A stretch of 64,000 bases of DNA from Thiospirochaeta perfilievii (GTDB lineage: Bacteria > Spirochaetota > Spirochaetia > DSM-2461), in the NCBI RefSeq assembly GCF_008329945.1, contig NZ_CP035807.1:1364001-1428000 (forward strand), given 5' to 3'. The notes beneath the pieces are model-generated. The model was not told the DNA's origin and made no database searches. It saw nothing but the letters and a program-made list of their open reading frames with translations. The translations under genes and the position numbers were made by a program. This document shows positions 1,260 through 49,456 of the stretch, piece by piece; position 1 is the first letter of the stretch, and each line of letters starts with the position of its first letter.

Positions 1260-1783
1260 CCCTTCTCTATGTATTTTCTATAATTGCCATTACCACAGTT
1301 GGTGGTGGTTATGCTATGATTCCACTAATACAGCAGGAAGCAATAACTATTCACAGGTGGATAACAGAGACTGAATTTGTAAATATACTGGCTGTTTCTC
1401 AAGTGACTCCTGGGGCTATTGCGATAAATTCTGCTACTTTTATCGGGTTTAAAAACTATCATATTTTAGGGGCAATAATCGCCTCGGTAGGTTTTGTTCT
1501 TCCATCTTTTATAATAATTTTTCTTATTGCCCCTATACTAAAAAAGTATGAAAAAAACAGGATTCGTATTAATATATTTAATGGAATAAGACCTATAGTT
1601 ACAGGGTTAATTGGGGCAGCAATAATAGTATTAGCTAAAAATATCTTTATTATAGATAGCAACATAAGTTATATTTCTATTTTTATAACTACTATTTCCT
1701 TTGTTATACTTAGGTTTTTTAAGATAAAGCCAGTTTATACCCTTCTTTTATGTGCAATTTCTGGTGTTATTATACTCCCCTAG
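1253..1783 (+). CDS. chrA: Chromate transporter, CHR family, second half-protein
   Basis: This 176-residue membrane protein repeats the CHR motif near its start (TVGGGYAMIPLIQQEA) and again VSQVTPGAIAINSATFIG, so it is the partner half of the preceding gene. A strong Shine-Dalgarno (AGGAGGGG) lies just before the ATG at 1253, inside the end of the first half. The two halves would form one antiporter-like transporter with opposite topologies, as known for paired short-chain CHR proteins. The 3' end overlaps the convergent LacI gene by 14 bases. Confidence 0.85.
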   Translation: MLTLLYVFSIIAITTVGGGYAMIPLIQQEAITIHRWITETEFVNILAVSQVTPGAIAINSATFIGFKNYHILGAIIASVGFVLPSFIIIFLIAPILKKYEKNRIRINIFNGIRPIVTGLIGAAIIVLAKNIFIIDSNISYISIFITTISFVILRFFKIKPVYTLLLCAISGVIILP

Positions 1784-2759: not shown

Positions 2760-2761
2760 TT

Positions 2762-4174
2762 TTATCCTGGGAAATTAAAGTATTTTAGACTGTTATTGTA
2801 ACTTATGTTTGTAACAATTTCACCTAGTAGATCTAAATCCTTTGGAGCTTCACCATTTTCCACCCATGTACCAATTTTATTACACAGTATTCTTCTAAAA
2901 TACTCGTGGCGTGTATAGGAGAGGAAACTTCGCGAATCTGTTAACATTCCTACAAATTGGGATAAAACACCCATATTTGCTAAAGACTCCATCTGTTTCT
3001 CCATTCCAGTTTTTTGATCATTAAACCACCACCCGGAACCAAACTGTATTTTCCCTGCTATAGAACCATCTTGAAAGTTTCCAATCATTGTTCCTACAAT
3101 ATCGTTATCTGCTGAATTTAATACATAGATTATTGTTTTAGGTAGTTGATCTTCTATATCTAGAGAGTTTAATAACCTAGACAGAGGAAGGGCGATGTCC
3201 CCACCACCAATAGAGTCAAAACCAGTATCTGGCCCTAGTTTATTAAACATTCTTGTATTGTTATTTCTAATAGCACCTATATGGAGCTGCATAGTCCAAT
3301 TTTTAGCCTTATTTAATCTACCATAGAGTTGTAAAAGAGCAGTATTTAACTGGGCAGACTCTTTTTCTGAGACCTTTTTTCCATCTAGAAGAGTAGATAT
3401 AGTAGCATCTAGATCTTGTTGTGTGTAACTCTCATATTCTGGTATTCTTATTGCATGATCTGATATTCGGCACCCAAGGCTGTGAAAATAGTTATGCCTA
3501 GACTCTAATGCCCTAGATAATGAAGTAAAATCTACAACATCAACTCCAGAAACTCTAGAGAGCTGCTCTATATAATCTCTATACAGGTAAGGATCTTCAA
3601 CAGCACCTGCCTTATCTGGCCTAAATGTGGGATACATTTTAAAATCTAAATGGGACTTCTCCTGTAAGGCACTATGGTACTCTAGACTATCTATAGGGTC
3701 GTCTGTTGTACATAATACTTTAACATCCATCTGCTTAATAATACCCCATGGGGAAAACTCTGGTTGTTTTAATTTCTCATTAACCTCATTCCATATAGAC
3801 TCTGCAGTTTGGCTATTTAAAACCCTATCCTTAATTCCAAAGGGTCTTCGTAGTTCTAAATGAGTCCAGTGATAAAGGGGATTTCCAATTAACATTGGAA
3901 CACACTTTGCCCAGGCTAGAAACTTCTCGTAGTCTGTTCCATCCCCAGTAATATATTTTTCATCCACACCTAGGCTTCTCATTGCCCTCCACTTATAGTG
4001 GTCTCCCTTTAACCATACCTCTGTTAAATTTTTAAACTGTCTATTCTCTGCAACATCCCTAGGTTGTAAATGACAGTGATAGTCTATTATTGGTTGTTTT
4101 TTTGCGTAATCGTGGTATAGAGTTTTTGCTGTATCACTAAGTAGCAAGAAGTCCTCTGTTAAAAAAGTACTCAT
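2762..4174 (-). CDS. uxaC: Glucuronate/galacturonate isomerase
   Basis: A full-length 470-residue UxaC of the amidohydrolase superfamily. It converts D-galacturonate to tagaturonate (and glucuronate to fructuronate). The N-terminal metal motif is IIDYHCHLQPRDVAENRQF, and LHIGAIRNNNTRMF and GSGWWFNDQKTGMEKQM are typical family blocks. It lies 16 bases downstream of uxaA and directly upstream of the LacI gene. It is the first enzyme of the Ashwell pathway, although it is third in the transcript. No lesion was seen. Confidence 0.97.
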   Translation of the reverse strand: MSTFLTEDFLLLSDTAKTLYHDYAKKQPIIDYHCHLQPRDVAENRQFKNLTEVWLKGDHYKWRAMRSLGVDEKYITGDGTDYEKFLAWAKCVPMLIGNPLYHWTHLELRRPFGIKDRVLNSQTAESIWNEVNEKLKQPEFSPWGIIKQMDVKVLCTTDDPIDSLEYHSALQEKSHLDFKMYPTFRPDKAGAVEDPYLYRDYIEQLSRVSGVDVVDFTSLSRALESRHNYFHSLGCRISDHAIRIPEYESYTQQDLDATISTLLDGKKVSEKESAQLNTALLQLYGRLNKAKNWTMQLHIGAIRNNNTRMFNKLGPDTGFDSIGGGDIALPLSRLLNSLDIEDQLPKTIIYVLNSADNDIVGTMIGNFQDGSIAGKIQFGSGWWFNDQKTGMEKQMESLANMGVLSQFVGMLTDSRSFLSYTRHEYFRRILCNKIGTWVENGEAPKDLDLLGEIVTNISYNNSLKYFNFPG

Positions 4175-34781: not shown

Positions 34782-35537
34782 TTATTTTTTATTGTTAATA
34801 AATGATATCTTTTCACCATCTAATGGAACAACTAAGTTACCTCTACTACACTGTTTAAATAGTTTAACTCTTGTATCAAAACAGTGATTGATAGAATCCA
34901 TATGTACTACAATAATTTTACAATTATTATTTAACCTTGCAAGTTTATCTATATCCTTATTATTCATAGTTACTTTTCCTAACATTTTAATTTTAGCTCC
35001 TCCCCCATTGGCTATAATGTAGTTAGGTTTAATTTTTTTAAGATTCTGTATTACTGATATAGTTAGTAGAGTATCTCCTGTAAGATAAATCTTAGATTGG
35101 GTGGATGTTAATAGATAGGATGAACTTACTCCTAATTTTTTATTAAAGATATGTCCGCCATGTGTTCCTATAAATCTTTGAACTTTAATACCTAGCCATA
35201 TAGTCTTTTCTTTTACCAGTGTAAGGTTTACAAAACCTAACTTTTTAAAGTTTAAATAATCCTCTTCTTGACACAAAATAGGAACATCCCTAGCTAATAT
35301 CTTTTTTGCAACTATATCAAAATGATCATTGTGATTATGGGTTATAATTATACCGTCAACATCTAATATATCCTCTATTTCTGCAGGTAGATTTACCAAT
35401 GGATTTTTTCTGGGATTTTTACTGTTAGTAATTGCTGGATAAACCCCTTTATCACCTAAAACAGGATCAATTAGTATTCTCTTATTATCGATTTCTATAA
35501 CTGATGTAGCGTGTCTGTAGTGTTTGATTGTTTTCAT
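34782..35537 (-). CDS. Metallo-beta-lactamase-fold hydrolase, UlaG-like
   Basis: A 251-residue MBL-fold protein. The metal motif is IITHNHNDHFD, followed by GTHGGHIF, the Asp of YLTGDTLL and a later His in VVHMDSINHC. It resembles the UlaG/YtkL-like L-ascorbate lactonase branch. It is preceded by a MerR gene and a long-spacer MerR-type promoter, so it is probably induced by whatever that MerR regulator senses. Substrate unknown. Confidence 0.8.
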   Translation of the reverse strand: MKTIKHYRHATSVIEIDNKRILIDPVLGDKGVYPAITNSKNPRKNPLVNLPAEIEDILDVDGIIITHNHNDHFDIVAKKILARDVPILCQEEDYLNFKKLGFVNLTLVKEKTIWLGIKVQRFIGTHGGHIFNKKLGVSSSYLLTSTQSKIYLTGDTLLTISVIQNLKKIKPNYIIANGGGAKIKMLGKVTMNNKDIDKLARLNNNCKIIVVHMDSINHCFDTRVKLFKQCSRGNLVVPLDGEKISFINNKK

Positions 35538-35557
35538 ATTAATGCTCCTTTATATAA

Positions 35558-35589
35558 AACATAAAGGTTGTACTATAGTACAAGGTCAA
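35558..35589 (-). promoter_or_regulatory. MerR-type promoter with over-long spacer and perfect 16-base palindrome
   Basis: On the minus strand, TTGACC (35584-35589) is followed by the perfect palindrome TTGTACTATAGTACAA (35568-35583) and then TTATGT/TATGTT (35558-35564). The -35 to -10 spacing is 19-20 bases, the hallmark of promoters activated by MerR-family DNA distortion. The -35 overlaps the stop codon of the merR gene at 35586-35588. It drives the metallo-hydrolase gene. Confidence 0.8.
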
Positions 35590-35966
35590 TATTTATTTAG
35601 ATAATTTGAAAATTTTTTGCATCTCTCCCTATCCTCTTTATCCCTGAATATAGTCAATGATTGTTTTAGACTATTTAATGATTCAATTTTTTTATCAATA
35701 TCAGATATCTTACTGTTTAAATAAGTATTAAACCTTTTTGGATCTTCTTTTGACCGGTATATTAACTCAAAAAACAGTTTAATCTCTTTTAAAGTGAAAC
35801 CTAAGGTTTTAAAAGAGATTATCAGCTCGAGTTTCTCAAATAGCTCTTCATTATAATAACGATAACTATTTTCTAGAATCATAGGGGTTATTAACCCTAC
35901 TTTCTCATAGTATCTAATTGTTTCTGGATTAACTTTTAGTTTATTGGCTATTTGTCCTCGAGTCAT
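35586..35966 (-). CDS. MerR-family transcriptional regulator
   Basis: A 126-residue MerR protein. The winged helix is MTRGQIANKLKVNPETIRYYEKVGLI with SYRYYNEE, then the FKTLGFTLKEIKLF block and a long dimerisation coiled coil. The C-terminus has only one Cys and no metal-binding loop, so a metal sensor is unlikely. Its target promoter is visible immediately downstream, overlapping its own stop codon. Confidence 0.88.
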   Translation of the reverse strand: MTRGQIANKLKVNPETIRYYEKVGLITPMILENSYRYYNEELFEKLELIISFKTLGFTLKEIKLFFELIYRSKEDPKRFNTYLNSKISDIDKKIESLNSLKQSLTIFRDKEDRERCKKFSNYLNKY

Positions 35967-36033: not shown

Positions 36034-36696
36034 TTATTTTTTTATATAGTAAATGATATTGTTCTTATTCCTAACCTCTATAATAGGGCTACTATGTTTA
36101 TATTTTAGTTCTAGATATTTGATAAAATTACTATCTTCTAAATCTACTTCAAAGGATAAATATACTCCCTTTGGCAGTAGTTTATAGGTGTAATAGGGGT
36201 CCTGGACAAGTTTTGACTGCTCTCCTCTAAAATCTAACTCTCTAATATAGATATTACCCCTATCAGACTTAGATAAAACTAGTTCTGGCAACTTAACCAC
36301 TCTTTTAACTATATCTGCCCTATTTTCAGAGAACCAGAGATCTTCACTTTTTATTACATCCAGTCCACTCCAGTTCTTATCTACTATTAGTTCTCCCGGA
36401 ACTTTATTAAAATACTTTTTACAATTTCTAATAAAAACTTCATGGGAATTAAATCCGTACTCAAAGGCTATATCTACAATATTTCCAGGGGATTTTTTAT
36501 ACTCTCTAATCCCCTCTGTTATCTTCCTCATTTTAATATAATCTAAAACGGTTATACCCACGGTACTATTAAAAATTCTATTTATATAGTTTTTAGAGTA
36601 ACCTAAGTAGTTTGATACATACTCAATAGACGTAAGGCTTTTTATTTCTCTCTCTATAACTTTTATTGTCTCATTTATTATTTCTAGCCGATCCAT
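36034..36696 (-). CDS. AraC-family regulator
   Basis: A 220-residue protein with the AraC DNA-binding domain at the N-terminus (SLTSIEYVSNYLGYSKNYINRIFNSTVGITVLDYIK and GNIVDIAFEYGFNSHEVFIRNCKKYFNKVP), followed by a ~110-residue domain ending IIEVRNKNNIIYYIKK, perhaps ligand binding. It follows the preceding gene by two bases and is the third gene of an MFS/unknown/AraC unit. It may control the MFS gene. Confidence 0.8.
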   Translation of the reverse strand: MDRLEIINETIKVIEREIKSLTSIEYVSNYLGYSKNYINRIFNSTVGITVLDYIKMRKITEGIREYKKSPGNIVDIAFEYGFNSHEVFIRNCKKYFNKVPGELIVDKNWSGLDVIKSEDLWFSENRADIVKRVVKLPELVLSKSDRGNIYIRELDFRGEQSKLVQDPYYTYKLLPKGVYLSFEVDLEDSNFIKYLELKYKHSSPIIEVRNKNNIIYYIKK

Positions 36697-36698
36697 TA

Positions 36699-37249
36699 TT
36701 ATCCCTTTATAGGGTAATAAACTGTAACTAACAACTTACTATACTCAATTATCTCATTAAGATCATATTCAATAATAAAGTAGTTTTCTAAATCCTTATT
36801 ATTATGGAGTTCATTTTCAAACTCTTTGGAGGTCATATACTCCTCCATGGTAAGGGTTATAGCCTTATATTTTTTTTTAGGAAATCTCATCCCAGTAAAA
36901 TTAGGAGGCATAACATTTAGATCTTTTACCATAAGACCTACTATGTTATATGATGGGGTATCCTCGTTTATATCCTCTCCAAACTTTATGATTTCATATT
37001 TTTTATCTTTATTTACTAAATTCCCAGACTCTTTTAAAAGTAAATGCATGTTCTGCTTTAGTAAGTTATGGGTAGGATATAACTCTTCCCAGTTTATCTC
37101 CCTATGAGCCTCGATACTGTGATCTTCACCACAATAGGGGCATATATTATCCCCTATATTCCCCCATGAACTATATTCAATATCTCCATCACCTTGACTT
37201 CTATTACCCTTAAAAACAAAATCTATAAATCCTATTATTTTAAACTCAT
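36699..37249 (-). pseudogene. Effector-binding-like protein, frameshifted near codon 4
   Basis: The visible frame from 37049 gives 116 residues without a domain start, but coding sequence extends upstream in the same frame (GFIDFVFKGNRSQGDGDIEYSSWGN, then CPYCGEDH, a possible metal knuckle) with no start codon. An ATG at 37249 overlaps the MFS stop (ATGA), but its frame hits TAA after four codons. One extra A in the A4 run (37238-37241) joins it: MSLKIIGFIDFVF. So the likely gene is about 183 codons, one base short. The C-terminal part resembles GyrI-like effector-binding folds, at low confidence. Confidence 0.6.
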
Positions 37250-38475
37250 CTAATAGGACATCTTAAAATTTCATATTTTGCCTCCTTATGACTACTATAA
37301 GACATTCTAGAATAGAATATTATTGATATTACACCAAATATGCTAAATAGTGCTATTGAGTATCTAATACCTATAAAGTCTGTAACTAAGCCTATAAATA
37401 ATCCTGCAACAGCACCAACAACGGAGTACATCATACTCATAACAGATCCAATTGTAGCACGATTTTTAGAGTCTATTTGACTCTGTATAAATGTTGAAGT
37501 TAAAGGGGACTCAAATGAGCTTAATGAAGCTAAAATAATAAACAGTATTACACCTAACATAACAGTACTGTTATTTATAAAGAGTGCAGAGATTAAAATA
37601 AGAACTCTGAGTATTGTGGTGAAAATTAGAGCTCTTTTAATGGATAGTACACTTTTACTTAACCATGGTAAAAATATAATAAAGATGGATGTAATAGCAG
37701 CAATAATACTTAGACTACTTTGCGGAACCCCATTTTCTGTTAAAAAGATATTCCATAGATCCCTTTGTACAAACATAACTGTTAAAATAGTAGAACCTAT
37801 TAAGTAGTTTAAAAAAGTTTTATTGCTCCTAATAAAATTAAATGAGGATTTAACAGGGGATATTATTTTTTTAAAATATGAGCTTTTATCACTATGTGGG
37901 ACAAAACCAAACTCCTTAATAAATAGTAATAAAATAGCAGAAAAGAGATACCCACCACCCCAAATATACCATAGAGGTTTAATTCCATACATCTTTACAA
38001 TAAGAGAGCCTATAAGAAATGCTACAACAGTGCCTAGCCCCATAAATGATGACATTTTTATATAGTACTCTTTTATTAAGTCCTCCCTTTTATGAAATTT
38101 TAGATTATCCACAATCAGAGCATCCTCCGCTCCACTTATAAATGTTATTCCTAACCCAATAAAGATATAGCTAATAAGTATTATAAAATAGTTGTTACTT
38201 AAACTAATAATTATGGGAGCGACTCCAGTTATTAAAAGCCCTATAAACACAGACTTTTTTCTTCCGTAGAGATCCGCAACAATACCTGTTGGAACTTCAA
38301 AAATAAAAAGTGATATCATCATTGCCGATGTAAATGAAGCTATTTGAGTAAAGGTAAAACCTAACTCTCTAAAGTATATATAGGTATAGGGCTGAATCAT
38401 AAGTGAAAATGTCCAGAATAGTAGATAGATATAAAAATTCCACAATAGCTTTAGTTCGTCATTTTTAAAAATCAT
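37246..38475 (-). CDS. Major facilitator superfamily transporter
   Basis: A 409-residue protein with about twelve spans. The MFS motif A-like loop is VADLYGRKKSVFIG after the second span, and SFESPLTSTFIQSQIDSKNRATIGSVMSM lies in the C-terminal half. It resembles small drug-efflux-type MFS proteins of Firmicutes and spirochaetes. AGGAGG lies upstream of the ATG. Its stop overlaps the next ATG by four bases. Substrate unknown. Confidence 0.85.
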   Translation of the reverse strand: MIFKNDELKLLWNFYIYLLFWTFSLMIQPYTYIYFRELGFTFTQIASFTSAMMISLFIFEVPTGIVADLYGRKKSVFIGLLITGVAPIIISLSNNYFIILISYIFIGLGITFISGAEDALIVDNLKFHKREDLIKEYYIKMSSFMGLGTVVAFLIGSLIVKMYGIKPLWYIWGGGYLFSAILLLFIKEFGFVPHSDKSSYFKKIISPVKSSFNFIRSNKTFLNYLIGSTILTVMFVQRDLWNIFLTENGVPQSSLSIIAAITSIFIIFLPWLSKSVLSIKRALIFTTILRVLILISALFINNSTVMLGVILFIILASLSSFESPLTSTFIQSQIDSKNRATIGSVMSMMYSVVGAVAGLFIGLVTDFIGIRYSIALFSIFGVISIIFYSRMSYSSHKEAKYEILRCPIR

Positions 38476-39038: not shown

Positions 39039-39878
39039 ATGCAAAATATAATAACACGTTTTCAGAGGGATTTAAATCTTCGGGGTTATAGTCCTAAAAC
39101 CTGCCAGGTGTATACTTCACAAATAGTACAATTTCTACAACATACGAATCTTTCGGAAAAAATTCCCAAAGCAGAAGAACTAAAAGATTACCTCTACCAC
39201 CTGGTATCCGAACATCATTTATCTAACTCAAGTTTAAAACAGACAAGTAGTGCTATAAAATATCTTTATACTCAAACACTAGGGCTATCTTGGGAATCTC
39301 TAAATATTCCTAATATCAAAGTAAAAAGAAAACTTCCTGTGTGGTATACGGCAAATGAAGTCCATTCTATTTTAGATAATGCCAAAAACCTTAAACATAA
39401 AACTATTTTAACATTAATCTATTCATCTGGGTTACGGCTTAGTGAATCTGTAAACATAAAAATAAGTGATGTGTATAGGAATCAAAAACGTCTACTTGTT
39501 AGGCAGGGGAAAGGAGGAAAAGATCGTTATACTATTCTATCAGATAGAGCTTTAAAACTCTTAGAACAATACTGGCTTGCCTACAAACCGACAACATATT
39601 TCTTTCAAGGCCGAGATGGTAAACCATATTCCCCGCGTTCATGTCAGCAAGCGTTTTATTTAGCAAAGGAAAGAGCAGGAGTTACAAGAGATGGAGGGAT
39701 TCATGGACTAAGACATTCTTTTGCAACCCATTATTTAGAAAATGGAGGTGGAATATTTCAACTTCAAAAATTTCTTGGCCATAAAAACCTTACAACAACT
39801 TTAGTATATGCCCATGTTTTAGAAGAAAAAAATGAGATTATTAGCCCTTTGGATTATTACTATGAAAACAGTAAATGA
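39039..39878 (+). CDS. Tyrosine recombinase (phage-integrase family) of the IS91-type element
   Basis: A 279-residue tyrosine recombinase. The SAM-like N-terminal domain (RGYSPKTCQVYTSQIVQFL) is followed by the catalytic core: Arg in YSSGLRLSESVNI, Lys in QGKGGKDR, HxxR in HGLRHSFATH, His in LGHKNLTTT and Tyr in LVYAHV. It lacks the extra helix between patches II and III that defines integron integrases, so it is not IntI. The next gene starts 17 bases before its stop. It precedes an IS91-type transposase and probably travels with it. Confidence 0.85.
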   Translation: MQNIITRFQRDLNLRGYSPKTCQVYTSQIVQFLQHTNLSEKIPKAEELKDYLYHLVSEHHLSNSSLKQTSSAIKYLYTQTLGLSWESLNIPNIKVKRKLPVWYTANEVHSILDNAKNLKHKTILTLIYSSGLRLSESVNIKISDVYRNQKRLLVRQGKGGKDRYTILSDRALKLLEQYWLAYKPTTYFFQGRDGKPYSPRSCQQAFYLAKERAGVTRDGGIHGLRHSFATHYLENGGGIFQLQKFLGHKNLTTTLVYAHVLEEKNEIISPLDYYYENSK

Positions 39879-41363: not shown

Positions 41364-41603
41364 ATGAAGAATAAAACTATTTTAAAAAAGAGCTTAATAG
41401 AGTCTCTTAAATTTATGCTAGTAGCTTTTCTTGCACAGGCAATATCAACATTATGGGATAATGACTTCAAATTTAGCTCTATCTTTAATTTGAATTGGCT
41501 TCAAGGTGAATTATTAGTCTCAGTCATTATTTTCCCTATTCTTTATATTATAGTTTTTATTGTTTTATTTATATATTTTAAACGTAAAGGTAAAGGTAAA
41601 TAA
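41364..41603 (+). CDS. Small membrane protein, cassette gene
   Basis: A 79-residue protein with two hydrophobic segments (residues ~14-28 and ~50-72) and a basic C-terminus KRKGKGK. No family was recognised. It starts about 30 bases after an attC-like right core and its stop is four bases before the next attC-like site, the compact spacing expected of an integron cassette. A candidate ribosome site AAGGAA lies upstream. Confidence 0.65.
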   Translation: MKNKTILKKSLIESLKFMLVAFLAQAISTLWDNDFKFSSIFNLNWLQGELLVSVIIFPILYIIVFIVLFIYFKRKGKGK

Positions 41604-41606
41604 AGC

Positions 41607-41771
41607 ACCTAACACAGCCTAAACGTTGCGCTTCGCTTAGCCTTCGGCCAATTTTTTGTGAGGTACACAGGGATGTATTTGAGGTAATATAAATTGAGTT
41701 AGATTATTCTGCAAATTTTTGAGTTATAGGTAACTTTCAAAAAGCTGCGTCTGGGCTCGGAAACGTTATAG
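41607..41771 (+). repeat. attC-like site 2 (long 165-base family)
   Basis: It starts ACCTAAC and ends AACGTTATAG. The inner arms AGCCTAAACGTTGCG and TGCGTCTGGGCT pair imperfectly. The first ~45 bases (CAGCCTAAACGTTGCGCTTC…) recur at 46177 and 49289. Confidence 0.75.
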
Positions 41772-41820
41772 GAAATTGTAATAATTTGACTTATAACCAA
41801 AATATAATTATCATATAATT

Positions 41821-42098
41821 ATGATTTCTTTTGAATGGGACAAAAATAAAGCAGAAATTAACTACAATAAGCATGGGGTGTCTTTTGAAGAAGCACAATC
41901 AGTTTTTTATGATGAAAATGCTAAAGAGTTTTTTACAATTCTCATTCTCAAGAAGAAGATCGATTCATTATGCTTGGATTTAGTAACCAAATTCGACTTT
42001 TAGTGGTATGCCATTGTATTAGGACGCGTGGTTCTAAGATTAGGATTATATCAGCTAGAAAAGCAACAAAAAATGAATCAAAACATTATAAGGGGTGA
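41821..42098 (+). pseudogene. brnT: BrnT toxin, frameshifted at a T6 run
   Basis: The first frame reads MISFEWDKNKAEINYNKHGVSFEEA, the classic BrnT ribonuclease start, then stops after 60 codons. From the T6 run at 41929-41934 a second frame continues YNSHSQEEDRFIMLGFSNQIRLLVVCHC and RIISARKATKNE, the normal BrnT core and C-terminus. One added T restores the gene. BrnT is a RelE-fold toxin that cleaves RNA. Its antitoxin BrnA follows after four bases. The lesion is at a homopolymer, so a base-call error cannot be excluded. Confidence 0.88.
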
Positions 42099-42102
42099 TG
42101 TT

Positions 42103-42318
42103 ATGAGAGATGAGTATGACTTTTCAACTATGAAATCTAGAAAGAATCCGTATGCAAAAAAACTTAAAAAACAAATAACAATTAGATTGGCAGTAGAGAC
42201 CATAGATTACTTCAAGGAGTTATCTCAGGATTCAGGACTTCCGTATCAAAATTTAATTGATTTATATCTTGAGGATTGTGCTAGAAATCATAAAAAATTG
42301 GAAGTTCAGTGGAGTTAG
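42103..42318 (+). CDS. brnA: BrnA antitoxin
   Basis: A 71-residue protein with the BrnA layout: an N-terminal toxin-binding stretch (DEYDFSTMKSRKNPYAKKL) and a C-terminal ribbon-helix-helix DNA-binding part (KKQITIRLAVETIDYFKELSQDSGLPYQNLIDLYL). ATG 42103 is preferred to upstream starts because AAGGGG precedes it by seven bases. It appears intact although its toxin gene is frameshifted. Confidence 0.88.
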   Translation: MRDEYDFSTMKSRKNPYAKKLKKQITIRLAVETIDYFKELSQDSGLPYQNLIDLYLEDCARNHKKLEVQWS

Positions 42319-42334
42319 AAATTATTTAAACTTC

Positions 42335-42350
42335 CTATAACAGACAATAT
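42335..42350 (+). repeat. Left half of an attC-like site, right half missing
   Basis: CTATAACAGACAATAT matches the start of other sites (43640, 46910) but runs straight into the sequence that begins the next cassette (CAATATTTTCCTATG…). A deletion probably removed the rest of this site. Confidence 0.6.
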
Positions 42351-42448
42351 TTTCCTATGTTTATTAGGCAATAAAATATTATTGGTAAAACCCAATAATT
42401 TTATTGACTTATCAAGTTAGAAAAAATAATATTAAATAGGTGGAATAA

Positions 42449-42634
42449 ATGTATAGTATAAAAGAATCCTCTATAAAGTTGATAATGCAGCTTCCTGACG
42501 ATTGTACGATAGAAGATATTCAGTATGAATTATATTCAAAAGCTAAAATAGAATTAGGTTTAAAGGATATCGAGACGGGAAATATCATTTCTGAAAATGA
42601 AATGGACTATGAAATTAATTCATGGCTTCAATAA
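42449..42634 (+). CDS. Antitoxin of ParE/RelE-type pair, copy 1
   Basis: A 61-residue acidic protein (KLIMQLPDDCTIEDIQYELYSKAKIELGLKD) resembling the short antitoxins that accompany RelE/ParE toxins, with the recurring pattern LP-x3-T-x-EDIxYELY. AGGTGGAATAA precedes the ATG. Its end overlaps the toxin start by 13 bases. A near-identical but damaged copy lies at 47102. Confidence 0.8.
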   Translation: MYSIKESSIKLIMQLPDDCTIEDIQYELYSKAKIELGLKDIETGNIISENEMDYEINSWLQ

Positions 42635-42912
42635 TTTGGACAACATTAGCAAAAAGTGATTTAAAAGAAATATTTAAGTATATTGCTAGAGATTCTCTTT
42701 ATTACGGAGAATCATTTGTAAAAAAGATACAATATGAAACAAAAAAATTGAAAGATTTTCCTAAAATGGGAAGAATAGTCCCAGAATTTAATGATGAAAA
42801 TCTTCGTGAAATCATATTTCAGAATTATAGAATAATTTATAAAATTAGAGATGAAGAGGTAGCAATCCTTACAATATTTCATCTTGCTAGAATTATTAAA
42901 TTTATAAAATAA
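42622..42912 (+). CDS. ParE/RelE-type toxin, copy 1 (intact)
   Basis: A 96-residue toxin of the RelE/ParE superfamily. The start SIIWTTLAKSDLKEIFKYIARDS is the usual first strand and helix pair, then KKLKDFPKMGRIVPEFNDENLREI and the core strand NYRIIYKIRDEEVAILTIFHLAR. It overlaps the antitoxin gene by 13 bases, so the pair is coupled. Whether it targets gyrase (ParE) or mRNA (RelE) cannot be told from this sequence. A copy with two stop codons lies at 47275. Confidence 0.88.
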   Translation: MASIIWTTLAKSDLKEIFKYIARDSLYYGESFVKKIQYETKKLKDFPKMGRIVPEFNDENLREIIFQNYRIIYKIRDEEVAILTIFHLARIIKFIK

Positions 42913-42934
42913 AATATTAAACGGAAAATACTGC

Positions 42935-42993
42935 CTATAACAGCGGGTATAGAAAATGGCTTCGCCACTTCCCATACCCGCAGAACGTTATAC
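42935..42993 (+). repeat. attC-like site, 59-base family, best example
   Basis: The outer arms CTATAAC and GTTATAC pair; the inner arms GCGGGTAT (42943-42950) and ATACCCGC (42974-42981) pair perfectly; the centre folds as TGGC-TTC-GCCA. A shifted base between inner and outer arms gives the asymmetry expected of attC. Confidence 0.82.
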
Positions 42994-43062
42994 AACATTT
43001 CTAACTATTCTATCTTTGCAAATCTAATGTTATTACTATATAATTACATTAAGAGGTGTGAG

Positions 43063-43311
43063 ATGCAGATATCAGTAATACCAATAGGTAACTCAAAAGG
43101 TATAAGAATCCCTAAAAATATACTTACTCAATTACACATAGAAGATTCTGTAGAACTTGAAGTTCATAACAAAGAGATATTAATAAAACCTATTCATAAG
43201 AATGTAAGAGAAGGTTGGACAACAGCATTTAAAAGCATGTCAGTAAATAATGAAGATGATTTATTAATTCCAGATAATATGGATTTAGAGGAATCTGAGT
43301 GGGAATGGTAA
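43063..43311 (+). CDS. mazE: MazE-like antitoxin
   Basis: An 82-residue AbrB-fold antitoxin: the swapped-hairpin DNA-binding part is IPIGNSKGIRIPKNILTQLHIEDSVELEV, and the acidic tail DLLIPDNMDLEESEWEW binds the toxin. ATG 43063 is chosen because GAGGTGTG lies just upstream; the longer frame to 43027 crosses the promoter. It overlaps mazF by seven bases. A second mazF without mazE lies at 49818. Confidence 0.9.
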   Translation: MQISVIPIGNSKGIRIPKNILTQLHIEDSVELEVHNKEILIKPIHKNVREGWTTAFKSMSVNNEDDLLIPDNMDLEESEWEW

Positions 43312-43628
43312 TAAATCAATATGATATTTTACTTGTAAACCTAGATCATACAGTAGGTCATGAAATTCAAAAAACACGTCCATGTGTTGTAATTTCACCG
43401 GATGAAATGAATCATTCTATAAAAACAGTCATAATTTCACCAATGACAACTAAATCTCATAATTACCCTACACGGATATCCATAACTTTTGAGAAAAAAG
43501 ATGGTTGGGTTGTTTTAGATCAAATTAGAACGATTGATAAAAAAAGAGTTATTAAAAAAATTGGAAAGTTAAAAAAGAGTGATATTGTAAGCATTAAAAG
43601 TGTTTTAAACGAGATGTTGATAGAATAA
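43305..43628 (+). CDS. mazF: MazF-family endoribonuclease toxin
   Basis: A toxin of about 107 residues with the family start INQYDILLVNLDHTVGHEIQKTRPCVVISPDEMN, the strand TVIISPMTTKSHNYPTRI, and GWVVLDQIRTIDKKRVIKKIGKL. The Arg of KTRPCVV and the Thr of SPMTT are the catalytic positions in MazF. It cuts mRNA at short sequences. The GTG at 43299 is also possible; ATG 43305 was chosen. It is intact and paired with mazE. Confidence 0.93.
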   Translation: MVINQYDILLVNLDHTVGHEIQKTRPCVVISPDEMNHSIKTVIISPMTTKSHNYPTRISITFEKKDGWVVLDQIRTIDKKRVIKKIGKLKKSDIVSIKSVLNEMLIE

Positions 43629-43639
43629 TTAGAAACGTC

Positions 43640-43759
43640 GTATAACAGACAATATACGTTCCGCTTCGCTTCAGCCTTCGGCATATTTAAATAGTCCTGT
43701 TTCTTGCAGAGCAAGAATCTAGTCCAATTGAAACATCGTACATCGTTGGAACGTTATCT
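43640..43759 (+). repeat. attC-like site after mazEF
   Basis: It starts GTATAACAGACAATATACG and ends TTGGAACGTTATCT. TTTCTTGCAGAGCAAGAA forms an internal hairpin. It shares its first ~25 bases with the sites at 44418 and 46910. Confidence 0.7.
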
Positions 43760-43821
43760 AAAATTTAAAAACGACGATACTGATAATTGACGTTACTAAC
43801 GCTAAGAGTTATTATTAAATT

Positions 43822-44103
43822 ATGATTAAAGATTTTACATCGAAAGAGACTGAAAAAATATGGAAAGGTGTAAAATCCCGTAAACTACCACAGGATATTT
43901 AAAATACTGCACGTAGAAAACTTAGAATGCTGAATAATGCCCAAGAACTTAACGACTTGAGAATACCACCAAATAATAGACTTGAAGCATTAAAAGGTAA
44001 TAGAAAAGGTTTGTACAGTATTAGAATAAATAATCAATGGAGAATTTGCTTCTCTTGGCATAATGGAGATTGTGCTGATGTCGAAATAGTAGATTATCAT
44101 TAG
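43822..44103 (+). pseudogene. higB: HigB toxin with nonsense codon 27
   Basis: Read through, the 94-codon gene is a complete HigB: IKDFTSKETEKIWKGVKSRKLPQDI, stop, NTARRKLRMLNNAQELNDLRIPP, GNRKGLYSIRINNQWRICFSW and DVEIVDYH. Codon 27 is TAA (43900-43902), where relatives have CAA (Gln), so one C to T change inactivates it. There is no frameshift and no nearby restart codon before the core. The HigA gene nine bases downstream is intact. It lies between two attC-like sites. Confidence 0.92.
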
Positions 44104-44112
44104 GAGATTTTT

Positions 44113-44412
44113 ATGAATGATAGATTGGATAATATTCATCCTGGAGAAATTCTACAAGAAGAGTTTCTTTTACCAATGGGAATTAGTGCATATAAGCTTT
44201 CGAAAGATTTACATATCCCACAAACAAGAATTTCTCAGATAGTTAAAGGTAATAGGCGTATTACAGCAGATACAGCACTAAGATTATCTGCATACTTTGG
44301 AACTTCTCCTCAGTTCTGGTTAGGGCTACAAGATGATTATGATCTTGAAGAACAAGAATTTATTTTGGAAGATGAGTTAAAAACTATACATAAAGAACAG
44401 CGTAGCTTTTAA
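44113..44412 (+). CDS. higA: HigA antitoxin
   Basis: A 99-residue HigA/VapI-type protein with HTH_3: HPGEILQEEFLLPMGISAYKLSKDLHIPQTRISQIVKGNRRITADTALRLSAYFGTSPQFWLGLQ. GGAG lies seven bases before the ATG. The toxin gene usually precedes the antitoxin in this family, as here, but the toxin carries a stop codon, so this antitoxin is now orphaned. Confidence 0.93.
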   Translation: MNDRLDNIHPGEILQEEFLLPMGISAYKLSKDLHIPQTRISQIVKGNRRITADTALRLSAYFGTSPQFWLGLQDDYDLEEQEFILEDELKTIHKEQRSF

Positions 44413-44417
44413 ACATC

Positions 44418-44513
44418 AGATAACAGACAGTATATGCTCCGCTCCGCTTCGCTGCGGTCTTCGACAAATCTATCATTGCGTGCTAGACTTCATATATTGC
44501 TGAAACGTTAGGT
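44418..44513 (+). repeat. attC-like site after higBA
   Basis: It starts AGATAACAGACAGTATATG and ends GCTGAAACGTTAGGT. The right core GTTAGGT fits the canonical GTTRRRY. The inner arms CAGTATATG and CATATATTGCTG pair; a GC-rich inner hairpin lies at 44440-44456. Confidence 0.78.
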
Positions 44514-44533
44514 GAAATAATTTAGTATTATAT

Positions 44534-44542
44534 ATAAAATAT
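44534..44542 (+). repeat. 9-base target duplication, left copy
   Basis: ATAAAATAT here and at 45821-45829 flank the IS4-type element exactly. Confidence 0.9.
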
Positions 44543-45820
44543 CATAGCTGTCCAATACAATCAAAACAACTCCTTTTGTAGCAGATAACTTTTCTGTGGA
44601 GCTTGTTTATCAGGCGGAACTGTTAACCAATCAAATAAATTAAGATTTGCAAATAATATAGTTGATAATATTGCCATTATTGAAGATACAGTCCAACCTA
44701 AAGTAGATTGAAATTCCATATATTTCAATAACAGAAACGAAATCGTAACGATCCAAACTTGAGTTAGAACAGCATTTCGGCTTGTTCCTAAAAAGCTTTT
44801 AATTTTTAGGTTTTGCTTAATTGTTTTAAAGAAAATCTCAATCTGCCATCTATCTTTATATATTGCTGAAATAGTTCTGGGAGACCATGAAAAGTTATTT
44901 GTAATTAGTGTTATACTTTTCTTCAAATCAGGATCATAACTTTCAACAAGCCGCAGTTTTAGAGGCTTTCCTTTCTTAGATATTATTTTATCAAAAACTA
45001 TGATTTTTTCAGACAGTATATTTTCATACTTTGAAACGTCTTTATCATCAAGCACAGAATATTTGGCATTTTTCTTCAATCTTGTAACAAAATAGATACC
45101 TTCTTCACTTAAATCTGAATAATATTGGTAATCGGTATACCCTCTATCAAATACAATAACATCATCTTTTTTAAAAGGAACATTTTTAATTTCATTAGAT
45201 TCATGTACTTTTGCATCCGTAACAGTAACAAAAGATGGAATATAACTGGAATGATCCAAAGTAACATGGAGTTTAATTCCACCCTTCTTTTTCCTAAAAT
45301 GAGCCCAATCAAACATGTTCAGGCAGAGATCAATAGTACTCGCATCTACGCTATAAAGTGGGTTTTTAAATCTAAATTTATGATTTTTATGTTTACTATG
45401 AAGCTTTGATAATAAAGAGTAAAATAGTTTTTCATAGATCTCATTTGGACGAATATTATTTGCATAAGAGAGCGTTGAGCGTTTAGTTTTGGATATCCCT
45501 AAATGATACAGCTTTTTACTTTGAAGCTCTAAACCGTTCTCAATTCCCCTTAGACCTGTTTGTCCGCTTAATTGAGCAAATAGCATTGCTGAAAACTGGT
45601 TCCAACAGGAAAATCCTTTATTCGCGAAGTCTCCTTTTTCTGATTTTACAATTTTTTCAAATTCATATCTCGGAATTAATTGTAGTATTTGTCGAAAAAT
45701 AGTATCATGAAAACTCATAGTAATCTCCTTGTGTGTGCTTTGTGTGGTACTTAGATTATACCTTGGAGATTACTTTTATAAAATACTTAAATTGTAGTTT
45801 TTTTGTTTTGGACAGCTATG
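44543..45820 (-). mobile_element. Complete IS4-type insertion sequence, 1,278 bases
   Basis: The ends are CATAGCTGTCCAA… and its inverted copy …TTGGACAGCTATG (one mismatch in the next bases). The element is bounded by 9-base direct repeats ATAAAATAT, so insertion is recent and the ends are exact. It landed between an attC-like right core and the ribosome site of a lipoprotein cassette gene. One minus-strand transposase gene fills it. Confidence 0.93.
44561..45718 (-). CDS. IS4-family transposase
   Basis: A 385-residue DDE transposase. An N-terminal DUF4372-like region (HDTIFRQILQLIPRYEFEKIV) is followed by YSVDASTIDLCL (first Asp), VIVFDRGYTDYQYYSDLSEEGIYFVTRLKKNA (second Asp) and DRWQIEIFFKTIKQNLKIKSFLG with the YREK-like Glu. 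The gene is intact and the element has clean ends, so it may still be mobile. Confidence 0.93.
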   Translation of the reverse strand: MSFHDTIFRQILQLIPRYEFEKIVKSEKGDFANKGFSCWNQFSAMLFAQLSGQTGLRGIENGLELQSKKLYHLGISKTKRSTLSYANNIRPNEIYEKLFYSLLSKLHSKHKNHKFRFKNPLYSVDASTIDLCLNMFDWAHFRKKKGGIKLHVTLDHSSYIPSFVTVTDAKVHESNEIKNVPFKKDDVIVFDRGYTDYQYYSDLSEEGIYFVTRLKKNAKYSVLDDKDVSKYENILSEKIIVFDKIISKKGKPLKLRLVESYDPDLKKSITLITNNFSWSPRTISAIYKDRWQIEIFFKTIKQNLKIKSFLGTSRNAVLTQVWIVTISFLLLKYMEFQSTLGWTVSSIMAILSTILFANLNLFDWLTVPPDKQAPQKSYLLQKELF

Positions 45821-45829
45821 ATAAAATAT
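45821..45829 (+). repeat. 9-base target duplication, right copy
   Basis: ATAAAATAT, identical to 44534-44542. It directly abuts the inverted repeat of the IS4-type element. Confidence 0.9.
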
Positions 45830-45850
45830 TTAAAATTTTAGGAGAATTAA

Positions 45851-46168
45851 ATGAAAAATAAGATAATTTTGATTTTAATAAGTATATTTTTTATATCTTG
45901 TAATCTGTTTAATAATAATAGAGCATTTAGCAAGGAGTCTTGGGAAAATGACCCAGATCATAGATATGAAATGATTGATGATTTAAAAAATAGCTACTTA
46001 AAAATTGGAATGAATAAAGATGATGTTATTGATTTACTAGGAGAACCTGAGAGTGAAAGCTCAGTCTATTATTTAGGAAATTCTAGCAATTATAATCCAA
46101 ACCCAGAGTTTTTAGATATAAAATACAGCAACAATAAAGTTTTGTCCTTTGGGGTTTTTGAAGGATAA
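45851..46168 (+). CDS. Small lipoprotein with BamE/SmpA-like domain, cassette gene
   Basis: A 105-residue protein with a lipoprotein signal (IILILISIFFISCNLF, lipobox Cys at ~17), then a short acidic linker and the BamE/SmpA-like stretch YLKIGMNKDDVIDLLGEPESES. AGGAGAA lies upstream of the ATG. The IS4-type element separates it from the preceding attC-like core, possibly removing its promoter. It likely faces the periplasm on a membrane; role unknown. Confidence 0.75.
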   Translation: MKNKIILILISIFFISCNLFNNNRAFSKESWENDPDHRYEMIDDLKNSYLKIGMNKDDVIDLLGEPESESSVYYLGNSSNYNPNPEFLDIKYSNNKVLSFGVFEG

Positions 46169-46176
46169 TTTACTTC

Positions 46177-46338
46177 ACCTAACACAGCCTAAACGTTGCG
46201 CTTCGCTTAGCCTTCTACCAATTTTTTTATAGGACAATGGATTGCAATTAGGTTAATATAAATTAAAGAGTTTATTCTGCAAATTAGAGTGTTTTAGCAA
46301 CCGTTCAAAAAACTGCGTCTATGCCCCGAACGTTAGAT
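46177..46338 (+). repeat. attC-like site, long 165-base family
   Basis: It starts ACCTAACACAGCCTAAACG and ends CCGAACGTTAGAT. About two thirds is identical to the site at 41607. The right core GTTAGAT fits GTTRRRY. Confidence 0.78.
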
Positions 46339-46386
46339 GAAATATCAAATATTGATTTTATTTAGAACGTACAATATAATGTACTT

Positions 46387-46641
46387 ATGAATGCAGTTAA
46401 TTACACCGATTTACGCCAGAATTTAAAATCTCACATGGACAGCGTCTATCAAGATCATGAACCTCTTATTGTTACTAGAAAAGACAACCAGAATGTTGTT
46501 TTAATTTCTTTAGAAGATTATAACAGTTTAACTGAAACTCAGTATTTATTATCTTCTCAAAACAACGCAAACAGATTGTTAAGATCATTATCTGATGCAA
46601 GAAATGGAAATACTTTTACAAAAGAACTTATTGAAGAATGA
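46387..46641 (+). CDS. yefM: YefM antitoxin
   Basis: An 84-residue Phd/YefM protein: MNAVNYTDLRQNLKSHMDSVYQDHEPLIVTRKDNQNVVLISLEDYNSLTETQYLL is the dimeric DNA-binding part and the tail binds the toxin. It overlaps yoeB by four bases. It autoregulates with YoeB in known systems. Confidence 0.95.
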   Translation: MNAVNYTDLRQNLKSHMDSVYQDHEPLIVTRKDNQNVVLISLEDYNSLTETQYLLSSQNNANRLLRSLSDARNGNTFTKELIEE

Positions 46642-46892
46642 ACATAACATTTACATCTGATTCTTGGGATGATTATCTTTACTGGCAAAAAAATGATAAG
46701 AAAATAATAAAAAGAATTAATGAACTTATTAAAGAAATTAAAAGATGTCCTTTTGAGGGGATTGGAAAACCAGAACCTTTAAAATTCCAACTCCAGGGCT
46801 GTTGGTCAAGAAGAATTGATCAAGAGCACAGAATAGTTTACGAAGTAGCTGATAAATCGATTTTAATTATTGGTTGTAGGTTCCATTACTAA
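46638..46892 (+). CDS. yoeB: YoeB mRNA interferase toxin
   Basis: An 84-residue YoeB: ITFTSDSWDDYLYWQKNDKKIIKRINELIKEIKRCPFEGIGKPEPLKFQLQGCWSRRIDQEHRIVYEV, ending CRFHY. The catalytic Glu (FEGIGKPE), Arg (EHRIVY) and terminal His-Tyr are all present. It cuts mRNA at the ribosome. Intact and coupled to yefM. Confidence 0.96.
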   Translation: MNITFTSDSWDDYLYWQKNDKKIIKRINELIKEIKRCPFEGIGKPEPLKFQLQGCWSRRIDQEHRIVYEVADKSILIIGCRFHY

Positions 46893-46909
46893 TCAATATT
46901 TGATACATC

Positions 46910-46999
46910 ATCTAACAGACAATATATGCTCCGCTGTGCTGCAGTCTTAGACAAATCTATCACTGCGTTATAGACTTTATATATCTCGGAACGTTTGTC
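46910..46999 (+). repeat. attC-like site after yefM-yoeB
   Basis: It starts ATCTAACAGACAATATATG, a perfect RYYYAAC core, and ends CTCGGAACGTTTGTC, an altered right core. The inner arms CAATATATG and TATATATCTCGG pair. Confidence 0.72.
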
Positions 47000-47101
47000 A
47001 ATATTTTCCTATGTTTATTAGGCAATAAATTATTATAGGTAAAACCCAATAATTTTATTGACTTATCAAGTTAGAAAAAAAATATTAAATAGGAGGAATA
47101 A

Positions 47102-47275
47102 ATGTATAGTATAAAAGAATCCTCAATAAAGTTGATAATGCAGCTTCCTGACGATTGTACGATAGAAGATATTCAGTATGAATTATATTCAAAAGCTAAA
47201 ATAAAATTAGGTTTAAAGGATATCGAGACGGGAAATATCATTTCTGAAAATGAAATGGACTATGAAATTAATTAA
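47102..47275 (+). CDS. Antitoxin of ParE/RelE-type pair, copy 2 (four residues shorter)
   Basis: A 57-residue protein nearly identical to the copy at 42449 (one Glu to Lys change near residue 38). A C to A change turns the Ser58 codon into TAA, removing the last four residues SWLQ. AGGAGGAATAA precedes the ATG. It may still fold, but its partner toxin gene is dead. Confidence 0.75.
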   Translation: MYSIKESSIKLIMQLPDDCTIEDIQYELYSKAKIKLGLKDIETGNIISENEMDYEIN

Positions 47276-47565
47276 TGGCTTCAATAATTTAGACAAAATA
47301 AGCAAAAAGTGATTTAAAAGAAATATTTAAGTATATTGCTAGAGATTCTGTTTATTATGGAGAATCATTTGTAAAAAAGATACAATATGAAACAAAGAAA
47401 TTGAAAGATTTTCCTAAAATGGGAAGAATAGTCCCAGAATTTAATGATGAAAATCTTCGTGAAATCATATTTCAGAATTATAGAATAATTTATAAAATTA
47501 GAGATGAAGAGGTAGCAATCCTTACAATATTTCATCTTGCTAGAATTATTAAATTTATAAAATAA
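47275..47565 (+). pseudogene. ParE/RelE-type toxin, copy 2, two nonsense codons
   Basis: It aligns over its whole length with the intact toxin at 42622. Codon 6 (TGG to TAG) and codon 9 (TTA to TAA) are stops, and no in-frame start lies before the core helix. The remaining 85 codons keep the frame and nearly every residue (for example KKLKDFPKMGRIVPEFNDENLREI). Confidence 0.93.
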
Positions 47566-47587
47566 AATATTAGACGGAAAATACTGA

Positions 47588-47646
47588 CTATAACAGCGGT
47601 TATACTAAATGGCTTCGCCACTTCGCATACCCGCGGAACGTTAGAC
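47588..47646 (+). repeat. attC-like site, 59-base family, second copy
   Basis: It starts CTATAACAGCGGTTATACT and ends CGCGGAACGTTAGAC; right core GTTAGAC fits GTTRRRY. It differs from the site at 42935 by a few bases, some of which weaken the inner stem. Confidence 0.8.
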
Positions 47647-47689
47647 TCAATATGGTTAAATATGATATAATAATACCAGAGAGGGACAT

Positions 47690-47866
47690 ATGACTAATAA
47701 GCAAAAAGCAATTAAAGTCATTTCTAATCTTCCTGAAACTGTAAACTTTGAAGAAATAATGTACAAACTTTATGTTTTAGAACAAATTCATCGAGGTCAA
47801 GAGGAAGTTGAAGCAGGAAATATAACTGCTATTACAGACTTAGAGCAGGAAGCTGCGAATTGGTAG
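47690..47866 (+). CDS. Antitoxin of a third ParE/RelE-type pair
   Basis: A 58-residue acidic protein (KAIKVISNLPETVNFEEIMYKLYVLEQIHRGQEEVEAGNITAI) of the same general design as the antitoxin at 42449 (LP-x-T-x-x-EEIxYxLY), too short for many gene callers. GAGGGA lies six bases before the ATG. Its stop overlaps the toxin start. Confidence 0.78.
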   Translation: MTNKQKAIKVISNLPETVNFEEIMYKLYVLEQIHRGQEEVEAGNITAITDLEQEAANW

Positions 47867-48141
47867 CATGGACAGATAAGGCAAAATCTTCACTAAGAAA
47901 TATCTTTAACTATATAAAAGAAGATTCTCCTTTTTATGCAAAAGAAGTTAAAAAGAAATTTATTTTTGAATCAAAGAAATTATCAGATTTTTTGAAATTA
48001 GGAAGAATTGTTCCAGAAGTTGAAGATGATAATATCAGAGAGTTATTCATATATTCCTATAGGATGATATACCAAATCGTCGATAATAATGTTTTTATAC
48101 TTACTATAATTCATTCTATACAGGAATTCTCTAACCTTTAA
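47860..48141 (+). CDS. ParE/RelE-type toxin of the third pair
   Basis: A 93-residue toxin (VAWTDKAKSSLRNIFNYIKEDSPFYAKEVKKKFIFESKKLSDFLKLGRIVPEVEDDNIRELFIYSYRMIYQI) clearly related to the duplicated toxin at 42622 but diverged. A TTG start at 47860 gives a seven-base overlap with the antitoxin and includes the conserved first strand; no ATG fits. It appears intact. Confidence 0.82.
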   Translation: MVAWTDKAKSSLRNIFNYIKEDSPFYAKEVKKKFIFESKKLSDFLKLGRIVPEVEDDNIRELFIYSYRMIYQIVDNNVFILTIIHSIQEFSNL

Positions 48142-48143
48142 TT

Positions 48144-48206
48144 TAACCATACTGCGTCTAGCGTTCCGACAATATATGCTCCGCTATCGCTCCGAAAACG
48201 ATTTAA
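48144..48206 (+). repeat. Degenerate attC-like site
   Basis: It contains TAACCATACTGCGTC, GCGTTCCGACAATATATGCTCCGCT and CCGAAAACG, fragments of other sites in scrambled order, and lacks a GTTA core. A recombined or decayed site. Confidence 0.5.
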
Positions 48207-48278
48207 TATAAATTGAACAACAAGCAAGAGAAATACTTATATAATGGAAATAGCTTTTATCTTAGAAGGGGTAGACTT

Positions 48279-49127
48279 ATGAAAAAAATAATTATCGTAG
48301 CAACAATAGTAACCATCGCACTAATTTTTATATTAATAATCACTTTTTTGATAGGAGCGTGGCGATTTAATAAGCAAGTTACAAAAAAAGAAAATCAAAT
48401 TTTGGAGTACACTAATCAGTTAGGAAAAACTGTAACGGAAGAGGATATTAACGTTTTCCCGAATCCGGTTCGAAATTGGTTAAAAAGTTCTGGTATAGTT
48501 GGGCAAAAAAAGGTTAGCACTGGTTCGCTTAAACAAAAAGGTGAAATGAAATTGAATGCTGACGATGAAGATTGGATGAAAGCTGAAGCGAAACAAGTTT
48601 TCAGTATAGATGAGCCTGCATTTGTTTGGTCTATAAAAACTAGTAAATCTGGCATTCCTGTCTATGGAGAAGATCTTTATATAAACGGTAAAGGTTCAAT
48701 GGTTATGAAACTAGCTGCTTTATTTCCGGTTGTAAATATTGAAGATAATGAAAAGATTAACAAAGCCGCTTTACAAAGATACTTAGCAGAAATGATTTGG
48801 TTTCCTAGTGCTTTTGTTGATAACGAATACATAACCTGGAAAGTAATTGATAACTTGTCTGCTACAGCCACAATGAACTATCAAGGAATAAAAGGAGATA
48901 TGACCTTTTATTTCAAAGAATCGGGTAAAATTGAACGAGTTGAAGCTATGCGTTATAAAGGCGTCGAATATGGTGATAAAGAAGAAAAATGGATTGGCTA
49001 TATCAGGAAGAACAACAAAGTTGATGGTATCGTCATTCCTACAGAAGTTGATATAGCTTGGCATTCGCAAGATGAAGAAGAGTTTATTTGGTATAAATTT
49101 GAAGTTTATGATATGGTTTTTCATTAA
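48279..49127 (+). CDS. DUF6544-like membrane-anchored protein, cassette gene
   Basis: A protein of about 282 residues. After MKK a single hydrophobic segment (IIIVATIVTIALIFILIITFLIGAW) anchors it, followed by a polar domain with FPNPVRNWLKSSGIVG, IRLKQKGEMKL-like, PVYGEDLYINGKGSMVMKLAALFPVV and LAEMIWFPSAFV blocks. This matches proteins I recall as DUF6544/DUF6920, of unknown function. ATG 48279 is preceded by GAAGGGG. At ~850 bases it is the largest cassette gene in the array. Confidence 0.72.
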   Translation: MKKIIIVATIVTIALIFILIITFLIGAWRFNKQVTKKENQILEYTNQLGKTVTEEDINVFPNPVRNWLKSSGIVGQKKVSTGSLKQKGEMKLNADDEDWMKAEAKQVFSIDEPAFVWSIKTSKSGIPVYGEDLYINGKGSMVMKLAALFPVVNIEDNEKINKAALQRYLAEMIWFPSAFVDNEYITWKVIDNLSATATMNYQGIKGDMTFYFKESGKIERVEAMRYKGVEYGDKEEKWIGYIRKNNKVDGIVIPTEVDIAWHSQDEEEFIWYKFEVYDMVFH

Positions 49128-49143
49128 GAAGTTTTGAAAAATA

Positions 49144-49200
49144 CGCAAGGCACGTTGCACTCTCACTCCGCAAAACATCGCATATACTGAAACGTTATGT
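49144..49200 (+). repeat. attC-like site after the DUF6544-like gene
   Basis: It ends CTGAAACGTTATGT. The inner part GCAAGGCACGTTGC can fold. The left core is not clear. Confidence 0.55.
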
Positions 49201-49228
49201 GAAATATATTTTTAAAGGACTAAATAAA

Positions 49229-49357
49229 ATGAATATTAAATTAATTGAAAAAAGGGATTTAAAACGCTTTCTCTTTAAAACTATACATCACATACACAGC
49301 CTAAACGTAGCGCTTCACCTATCCTTCGGCCAATTTTTTATAGGGGACACAGGATAA
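49229..49357 (+). other. Short ORF, probably a truncated cassette gene
   Basis: ATG 49229 with AAAGGAC upstream opens a 42-residue frame (MNIKLIEKRDLKRFLFKTIH) that runs directly into the next attC-like site at 49289. Only about 20 codons precede the site, so the original gene was probably cut by a deletion. The start resembles many small acetyltransferases, but this is too short to assign. Confidence 0.45.
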
Positions 49358-49456
49358 TATTTGGGTTAATATAAATTCAAAGAGTTTATTCAGTAAATTT
49401 GAGGGTTCTAGGTAACTTTCAAAAAAACTGCGTACAGGCTCTCGGAAACGTTATAC
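49289..49456 (+). repeat. attC-like site, long 165-base family
   Basis: It starts ACATACACAGCCTAAACG and ends TCGGAAACGTTATAC. Much of it matches the sites at 41607 and 46177, including the internal TAATATAAATT stretch. Confidence 0.72.

Follow-up and report, generated by a model that had tools for sequence, protein, structure and literature searches.

Promoters controlled by MerR-family regulators typically possess spacers of 19-20 bp, and their activation proceeds through distortion or kinking of the operator (PMC9909328). In mercury resistance, the sequence TTGACCCTGTACTATGGTACAGGGTTTATACT lies upstream of one staphylococcal merR1 gene (L080), and in merR-Pmer-merTPCA of the Glaciecola plasmid pGLAAG01 (L087) the regulator, a dyad promoter TTGACTCCGTACATCGGTACGGAG and the target all lie on one strand. 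On the Morganella plasmid p48659_1, a MerR-type promoter (L081:1902-1932, TTGACTTAAAGTTAACTTGAAGTTGTATCAT), whose -35 element contains the regulator TGA, precedes the gene of an MFS transporter. The enzyme SaxA breaks electrophilic isothiocyanates down to amines (PMC12903958).

Here we describe a locus of Thiospirochaeta perfilievii, in a window (the whole stretch of DNA analysed) of 64,000 nucleotides, in which a MerR-family gene is followed by the gene of a SaxA-like hydrolase. It is not unusual for a regulator to share its strand with the promoter and the target, and such layouts are seen elsewhere. The locus resembles that of Glaciecola in this layout, but in the latter the stop codon precedes the promoter, the genes are true mercury genes and the set of cysteines is complete. 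The Morganella pair is similar in that TTGACT overlaps the regulator TGA in the same register before a same-strand target; its dyad is imperfect, with a 19-nt spacer to TATCAT. It differs in the regulator, merely about 35% identical, and in its target, the MFS transporter.

The probable MerR-type promoter between merR and the hydrolase gene

The features of the locus are as follows.

35586..35966, minus strand: merR, MerR-family regulator of 126 aa (Pfam MerR_1 and MerR-DNA-bind; orthologues; single invariant Cys116)
35586..35588, minus strand: TGA, the stop codon of merR, lying within the -35 hexamer (from the sequence)
35584..35589, minus strand: -35 element TTGACC (from the sequence; invariant in the four orthologous loci and in the staphylococcal merR1 promoter)
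35568..35583, minus strand: predicted operator for MerR, the perfect 16-bp palindrome TTGTACTATAGTACAA (TGTA...TACA half-sites shared without change by four spirochaetes and the staphylococcal mer operator)
35558..35563, minus strand: -10 element TATGTT, 20-nt spacer (from the sequence; TATATT, TATCAT and TAGGTT in the orthologues at the same 20-nt spacing)
35545..35551, minus strand: ribosome-binding site AAAGGAG of the hydrolase gene (from the sequence)
34782..35537, minus strand: predicted target gene, SaxA-like metallo-beta-lactamase-fold hydrolase of 251 aa (6BRM match, model and metal motif)

The original prediction had set a MerR-type promoter at 35558-35589, embedded in the end of its regulator's gene, and direct reading of the sequence found all of its elements exactly there, on the minus strand. 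Both the long spacer (20 nt, within the 19-20 bp of MerR-regulated promoters) and the internal dyad (a perfect 16 bp) are present. A spacer of 19 nt was dropped in favour of 20 nt, as 19 nt gives poor hexamers (here TTATGT) at each of the four orthologous loci. A sigma-70 scan with spacers limited to 16-18 nt missed this promoter, as expected of a MerR promoter. Transcription is predicted to start at about 35551, about 7 nt past the -10 element, and the hydrolase ATG is read at 35537 on the minus strand, so that the leader would be merely ~13 nt long.

The palindrome with its 19-20-base spacer had been taken as diagnostic of MerR-type activation, which for the palindrome in itself is too strong. 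The window (32% GC) contains four perfect 16-bp palindromes, where a first-order Markov model of it predicts about 2.2. TTGAC followed within the next 20 nt by a perfect dyad (length at least 14) occurs once in the window against 0.09 expected, and this composite motif is only moderately rare. Comparison must therefore carry the case. The site occurs only once in the 3.7-Mb genome; the next-best copy of the palindrome there carries 2 mismatches and has no adjoining TTGAC, and allowing 1 mismatch to the footprint gave no further promoter-like copy. The search for the palindrome elsewhere in the genome, which had been suggested as a check, thus gave no credible further regulon site. A scan of 393 genomes of the phylum yielded no convincing regulon sites; two one-mismatch hits lay outside this genome, one of which (L079) was inspected only briefly.

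Staphylococcal MerR1 proteins are among the best plasmid matches of the window MerR, with 37-39% identity; the L080 regulator is 34% identical. Using the 32-nt L080 merR1 operator as the query in an ungapped comparison on both strands, the best place in the window was exactly 35558-35589, with 25/32 bases identical, followed by the reverse of the same site (22/32) and by unrelated places (20/32 at most). The two promoters share the pattern TTGACC-yTGTAC-TATr-GTACAr and the 20-nt spacer. In addition, the recognition-helix region is nearly identical, NPETIRYYE in the window MerR and NKETIRYYE in L080 MerR1. The operator match together with this region marks the dyad as a mer-like operator, as judged from the sequence, and 35558-35589 is very probably a MerR-type promoter activated by distortion. 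Unlike in the staphylococcal system, the window promoter lies after merR and not before it, the window MerR is without two of the three Hg-binding cysteines, and the predicted target is a SaxA-like hydrolase, not merA.

Conservation of the merR-hydrolase pair in spirochaetes

Whole-genome searches revealed close orthologues of both proteins, adjacent and in the same order, in G001, G006 and G043, which belong to the same genus, the same family and the same class, respectively, as the window genome (G000). The G001 contig is the same as in the Spirochaetales MAG, isolate ZodW_Metabat.93 (L033). The identities in this order are 65%, 54% and 34% for MerR, and 64%, 54% and 43% for the hydrolase. 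In all four genomes with a close hydrolase orthologue, merR and the hydrolase gene adjoin on the same strand, 48-61 nt apart, and the gap holds TTGACCyTGTA-N6-TACA-N3-TTTA at or just after the stop codon, with the -10 element at 20 nt. Between G000 and G001, 31 of the 32 promoter bases are identical, compared with 70-71% of the bases and 53-55% of the third positions in the flanking genes. In neither G006 nor G043 is the dyad perfect. The two G043 half-sites carry a paired change at their fifth base, from TGTAC/GTACA to TGTAG/CTACA, which retains the dyad symmetry. The overlap of the -35 element with the merR stop codon, a point of the original prediction, is real, with TGA inside TTGACC, yet it is not essential. 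It is found in three of the four loci, and in G006 the stop lies 6 nt before TTGACC, indicating that retention of the promoter does not depend on its overlap with the coding sequence. The comparison comprises these four orthologous loci only, and wider sampling, at the level of the order, the class and the phylum, gave no further close orthologues.

More distant hydrolase homologues come without a co-directional merR, and most SaxA-like homologues were found without an adjacent MerR; beside the more distant hydrolases L090 and L091 no MerR was found. In G302 (L074), a 116-aa MerR-family protein (2497-2847, plus strand) is encoded divergently from a more distant SaxA-like hydrolase (1498-2295, minus strand). 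This pair was not counted as the same system, as its regulator is 25% identical and has no Cys at the C116 position, and no clear operator was found.

The next gene in the window (34718-33063), for an AMP-binding ligase, comes with a promoter-like site of its own and is not beside the pair in the relatives. Therefore, the conserved unit is the merR-hydrolase pair. Upstream of merR on the minus strand are genes for an AraC-type regulator with a SoxS/Rob-like helix-turn-helix (36034-36696), a protein without Pfam or NCBIfam hit (36699-37049) and an MFS transporter with a weak resemblance to TetA(P) (37246-38475). The genes of 36034-38475 form a small stress/efflux neighbourhood, which is not kept beside merR in the relatives. 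Elsewhere in the window, a tyrosine recombinase resembling XerA/integron integrases is encoded at 39039-39878 on the plus strand (191.9 bits for NF040815 and 165.9 bits for TIGR02249, both below cut-off). It is followed at 41600-49430 by imperfect repeats of 42-130 nt (TAACAGACAATATAYGYTCCGCT..., CACCTAACACAGCCTAAACGTTGCGCTTCGCTTAGCC...) spaced every 0.7-3 kb, and the recombinase and repeats make a candidate chromosomal integron with attC-like sites.

The SaxA-like hydrolase

The only single-sequence PDB hits of the hydrolase are SaxA (6BRM, E = 1.9e-36) and 3RPC (3.1e-31). Comparison of its AlphaFold model (pLDDT 91) with the solved structures yields a Z of 35.1 and a TM of 0.92 to 6BRM, and a Z of 36.0 to 3RPC. 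The di-metal motif H67xH69xD71H72, H126, D155 and H212 is invariant in 11 homologues. The window hydrolase thus combines the sequence, the fold and the intact metal site of SaxA, an isothiocyanate hydrolase, which is the closest solved relative by sequence and tied closest by fold, with the metal-ligand motif kept. The identity to SaxA is about 30%. The description of the enzyme as UlaG-like proved imprecise. The metallo-beta-lactamase fold is indeed common to both, but the L-ascorbate-6-phosphate lactonase UlaG (2WYL) is only 13-14% identical, gives a Z of 22.3 against 35-36 for SaxA and 3RPC, and is absent among the single-sequence PDB hits, so that the enzyme stands nearer to SaxA and 3RPC in sequence and fold. 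A literature search found no paper joining MerR and SaxA, and SaxA under MerR control is unreported there.

Other SaxA-like hydrolases are accompanied by other genes. In L071 and L076, a small regulator is encoded upstream on the same strand (L071:2301-2660, L076:2501-2836); by eye it is HxlR-family-like, with an N-terminal Cys (EYTCPLEII), and is possibly a thiol-type sensor. In Paenibacillus/Cohnella, a regulator named by eye as Lrp/AsnC-like is divergent from the hydrolase (L042:2438-2920, L043:2420-2905, L046:2421-2900). On the E. coli IncHI2 plasmid pFLI21_4 (L085), two metallo-beta-lactamase-fold hydrolases, at least one of them SaxA-like and 34.5% identical to the window enzyme, flank an MFS transporter.

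The regulator and its signal

The window MerR matches PF13411 (MerR_1, 4e-16) and PF09278 (MerR-DNA-bind, 1.3e-8) above the cut-offs, placing it in the MerR family, whose members have a winged helix-turn-helix at the N-terminus and then a dimerisation helix. A structure model from two sequences was poor (pLDDT 67) and was left out of the evidence. The whole protein has one Cys, C116, which is invariant in the four orthologues, and it accordingly falls short of the four-Cys [2Fe-2S] cluster of SoxR. The electrophile sensors NmlR and AdhR have a conserved Cys near residue 52-54. No such Cys was found at residues 49-57 in any of the four orthologues, and the NF041849 score of the window MerR is 38 bits against a cut-off of 175.

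An ordinary mercury-type metal sensor that happens to control a hydrolase would agree with the staphylococcal matches of the regulator and with the mer-like operator, and C116 aligns with the second metal-loop Cys of L080 MerR1 and of the proteobacterial L087 mer regulator, which is encoded beside merT/P/C/A. However, C116 is the only one present of the three residues of the metal-sensing subfamily (two loop Cys and a dimer-helix Cys/Ser). The dimer-helix Cys (C79) is replaced by Arg78 in the window MerR and is a Cys in none of the four orthologues, and all of them have lost the first metal-loop Cys through a four-residue deletion. The loss of two of the three Hg-ligand cysteines argues against a canonical metal sensor, and these residues rule out the canonical three-Cys metal site. 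In addition, the scores for TIGR02051 MerR, CueR, ZntR and CadR-PbrR are less than half of their curated cut-offs, no mer genes adjoin the pair, and no MerA over the cut-off was found in the genome, making a metal sensor quite unlikely. A still weaker case, highly improbable in our judgement, would have the dyad terminate merR transcription, with any promoter being fortuitous. The dyad does come directly after the merR stop, and a 6-bp stem, UUGUAC-UAUA-GUACAA, is possible in the RNA. But the dyad is absent from the output of a terminator scan and no T-run follows it; conservation extends beyond the stem to TTGACC and TTTA, and in G006 the arms weaken while the hexamers stay.

A much closer contender, which we place just short of even odds, is the same switch answering to a non-covalent ligand or metabolite unrelated to isothiocyanates, with a hydrolase of a different substrate. 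The SaxA-like family is broad and has members in archaea, in Bacillota and on E. coli plasmids, settings in which plant isothiocyanates do not suggest themselves as the substrate. MerR sensors vary widely, and 30% identity does not fix the substrate. The short regulator (126 aa), with no separate ligand-binding domain, speaks against it, as does the invariant Cys of the C-terminal region, a candidate sensor residue.

We propose, with a probability of about 85% that leaves aside the identity of the inducer, that the locus is a local one-regulator, one-target MerR switch driving the SaxA-like hydrolase. MerR-type activation of the downstream hydrolase, as originally predicted, appears well supported by the conservation in four genomes and the match to the mer operator. 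In the proposed switch, a MerR dimer would occupy the mer-like dyad, which separates a good -35 element from a -10 element at 20 nt, a spacing 2-3 nt too long for RNA polymerase, and the promoter would be held nearly silent. Upon binding or modification of MerR by its ligand, the operator would be kinked and the hexamers realigned. The hydrolase gene would then be transcribed from ~35551, almost directly onto the ribosome-binding site. Repression, kinking and activation are assumed here by analogy with the MerR family.

As the most likely inducer we would guess a thiol-reactive, isothiocyanate-like electrophile, sensed via Cys116 and removed by the hydrolase, a guess from the 30% identity to SaxA and the one conserved Cys; that most SaxA-like homologues found lack a neighbouring MerR counts against it. 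The full proposal, that in free-living spirochaetes a mercury-type MerR without its metal site, on a near-unchanged mer operator, has been rewired to sense electrophiles through a single cysteine and to drive an isothiocyanate-type hydrolase, is tentative and, taken as a whole, rather unlikely.

The wiring is of a well-known kind, and the point of mild interest is the signal of a mercury-type MerR without a mercury site on a mer-type operator. With its defined operator, regulator and enzyme, the locus offers a genetic circuit amenable to testing in a group that has received little study. Should the inducer prove to be an electrophile, the locus would show a mercury-type sensor changing its signal with the DNA site kept, and would link SaxA-like hydrolases with a dedicated stress switch in bacteria other than plant pathogens. 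The rewired single-cysteine sensor, if true, would represent an induction circuit dedicated to a SaxA-like enzyme and a new class of MerR signal.
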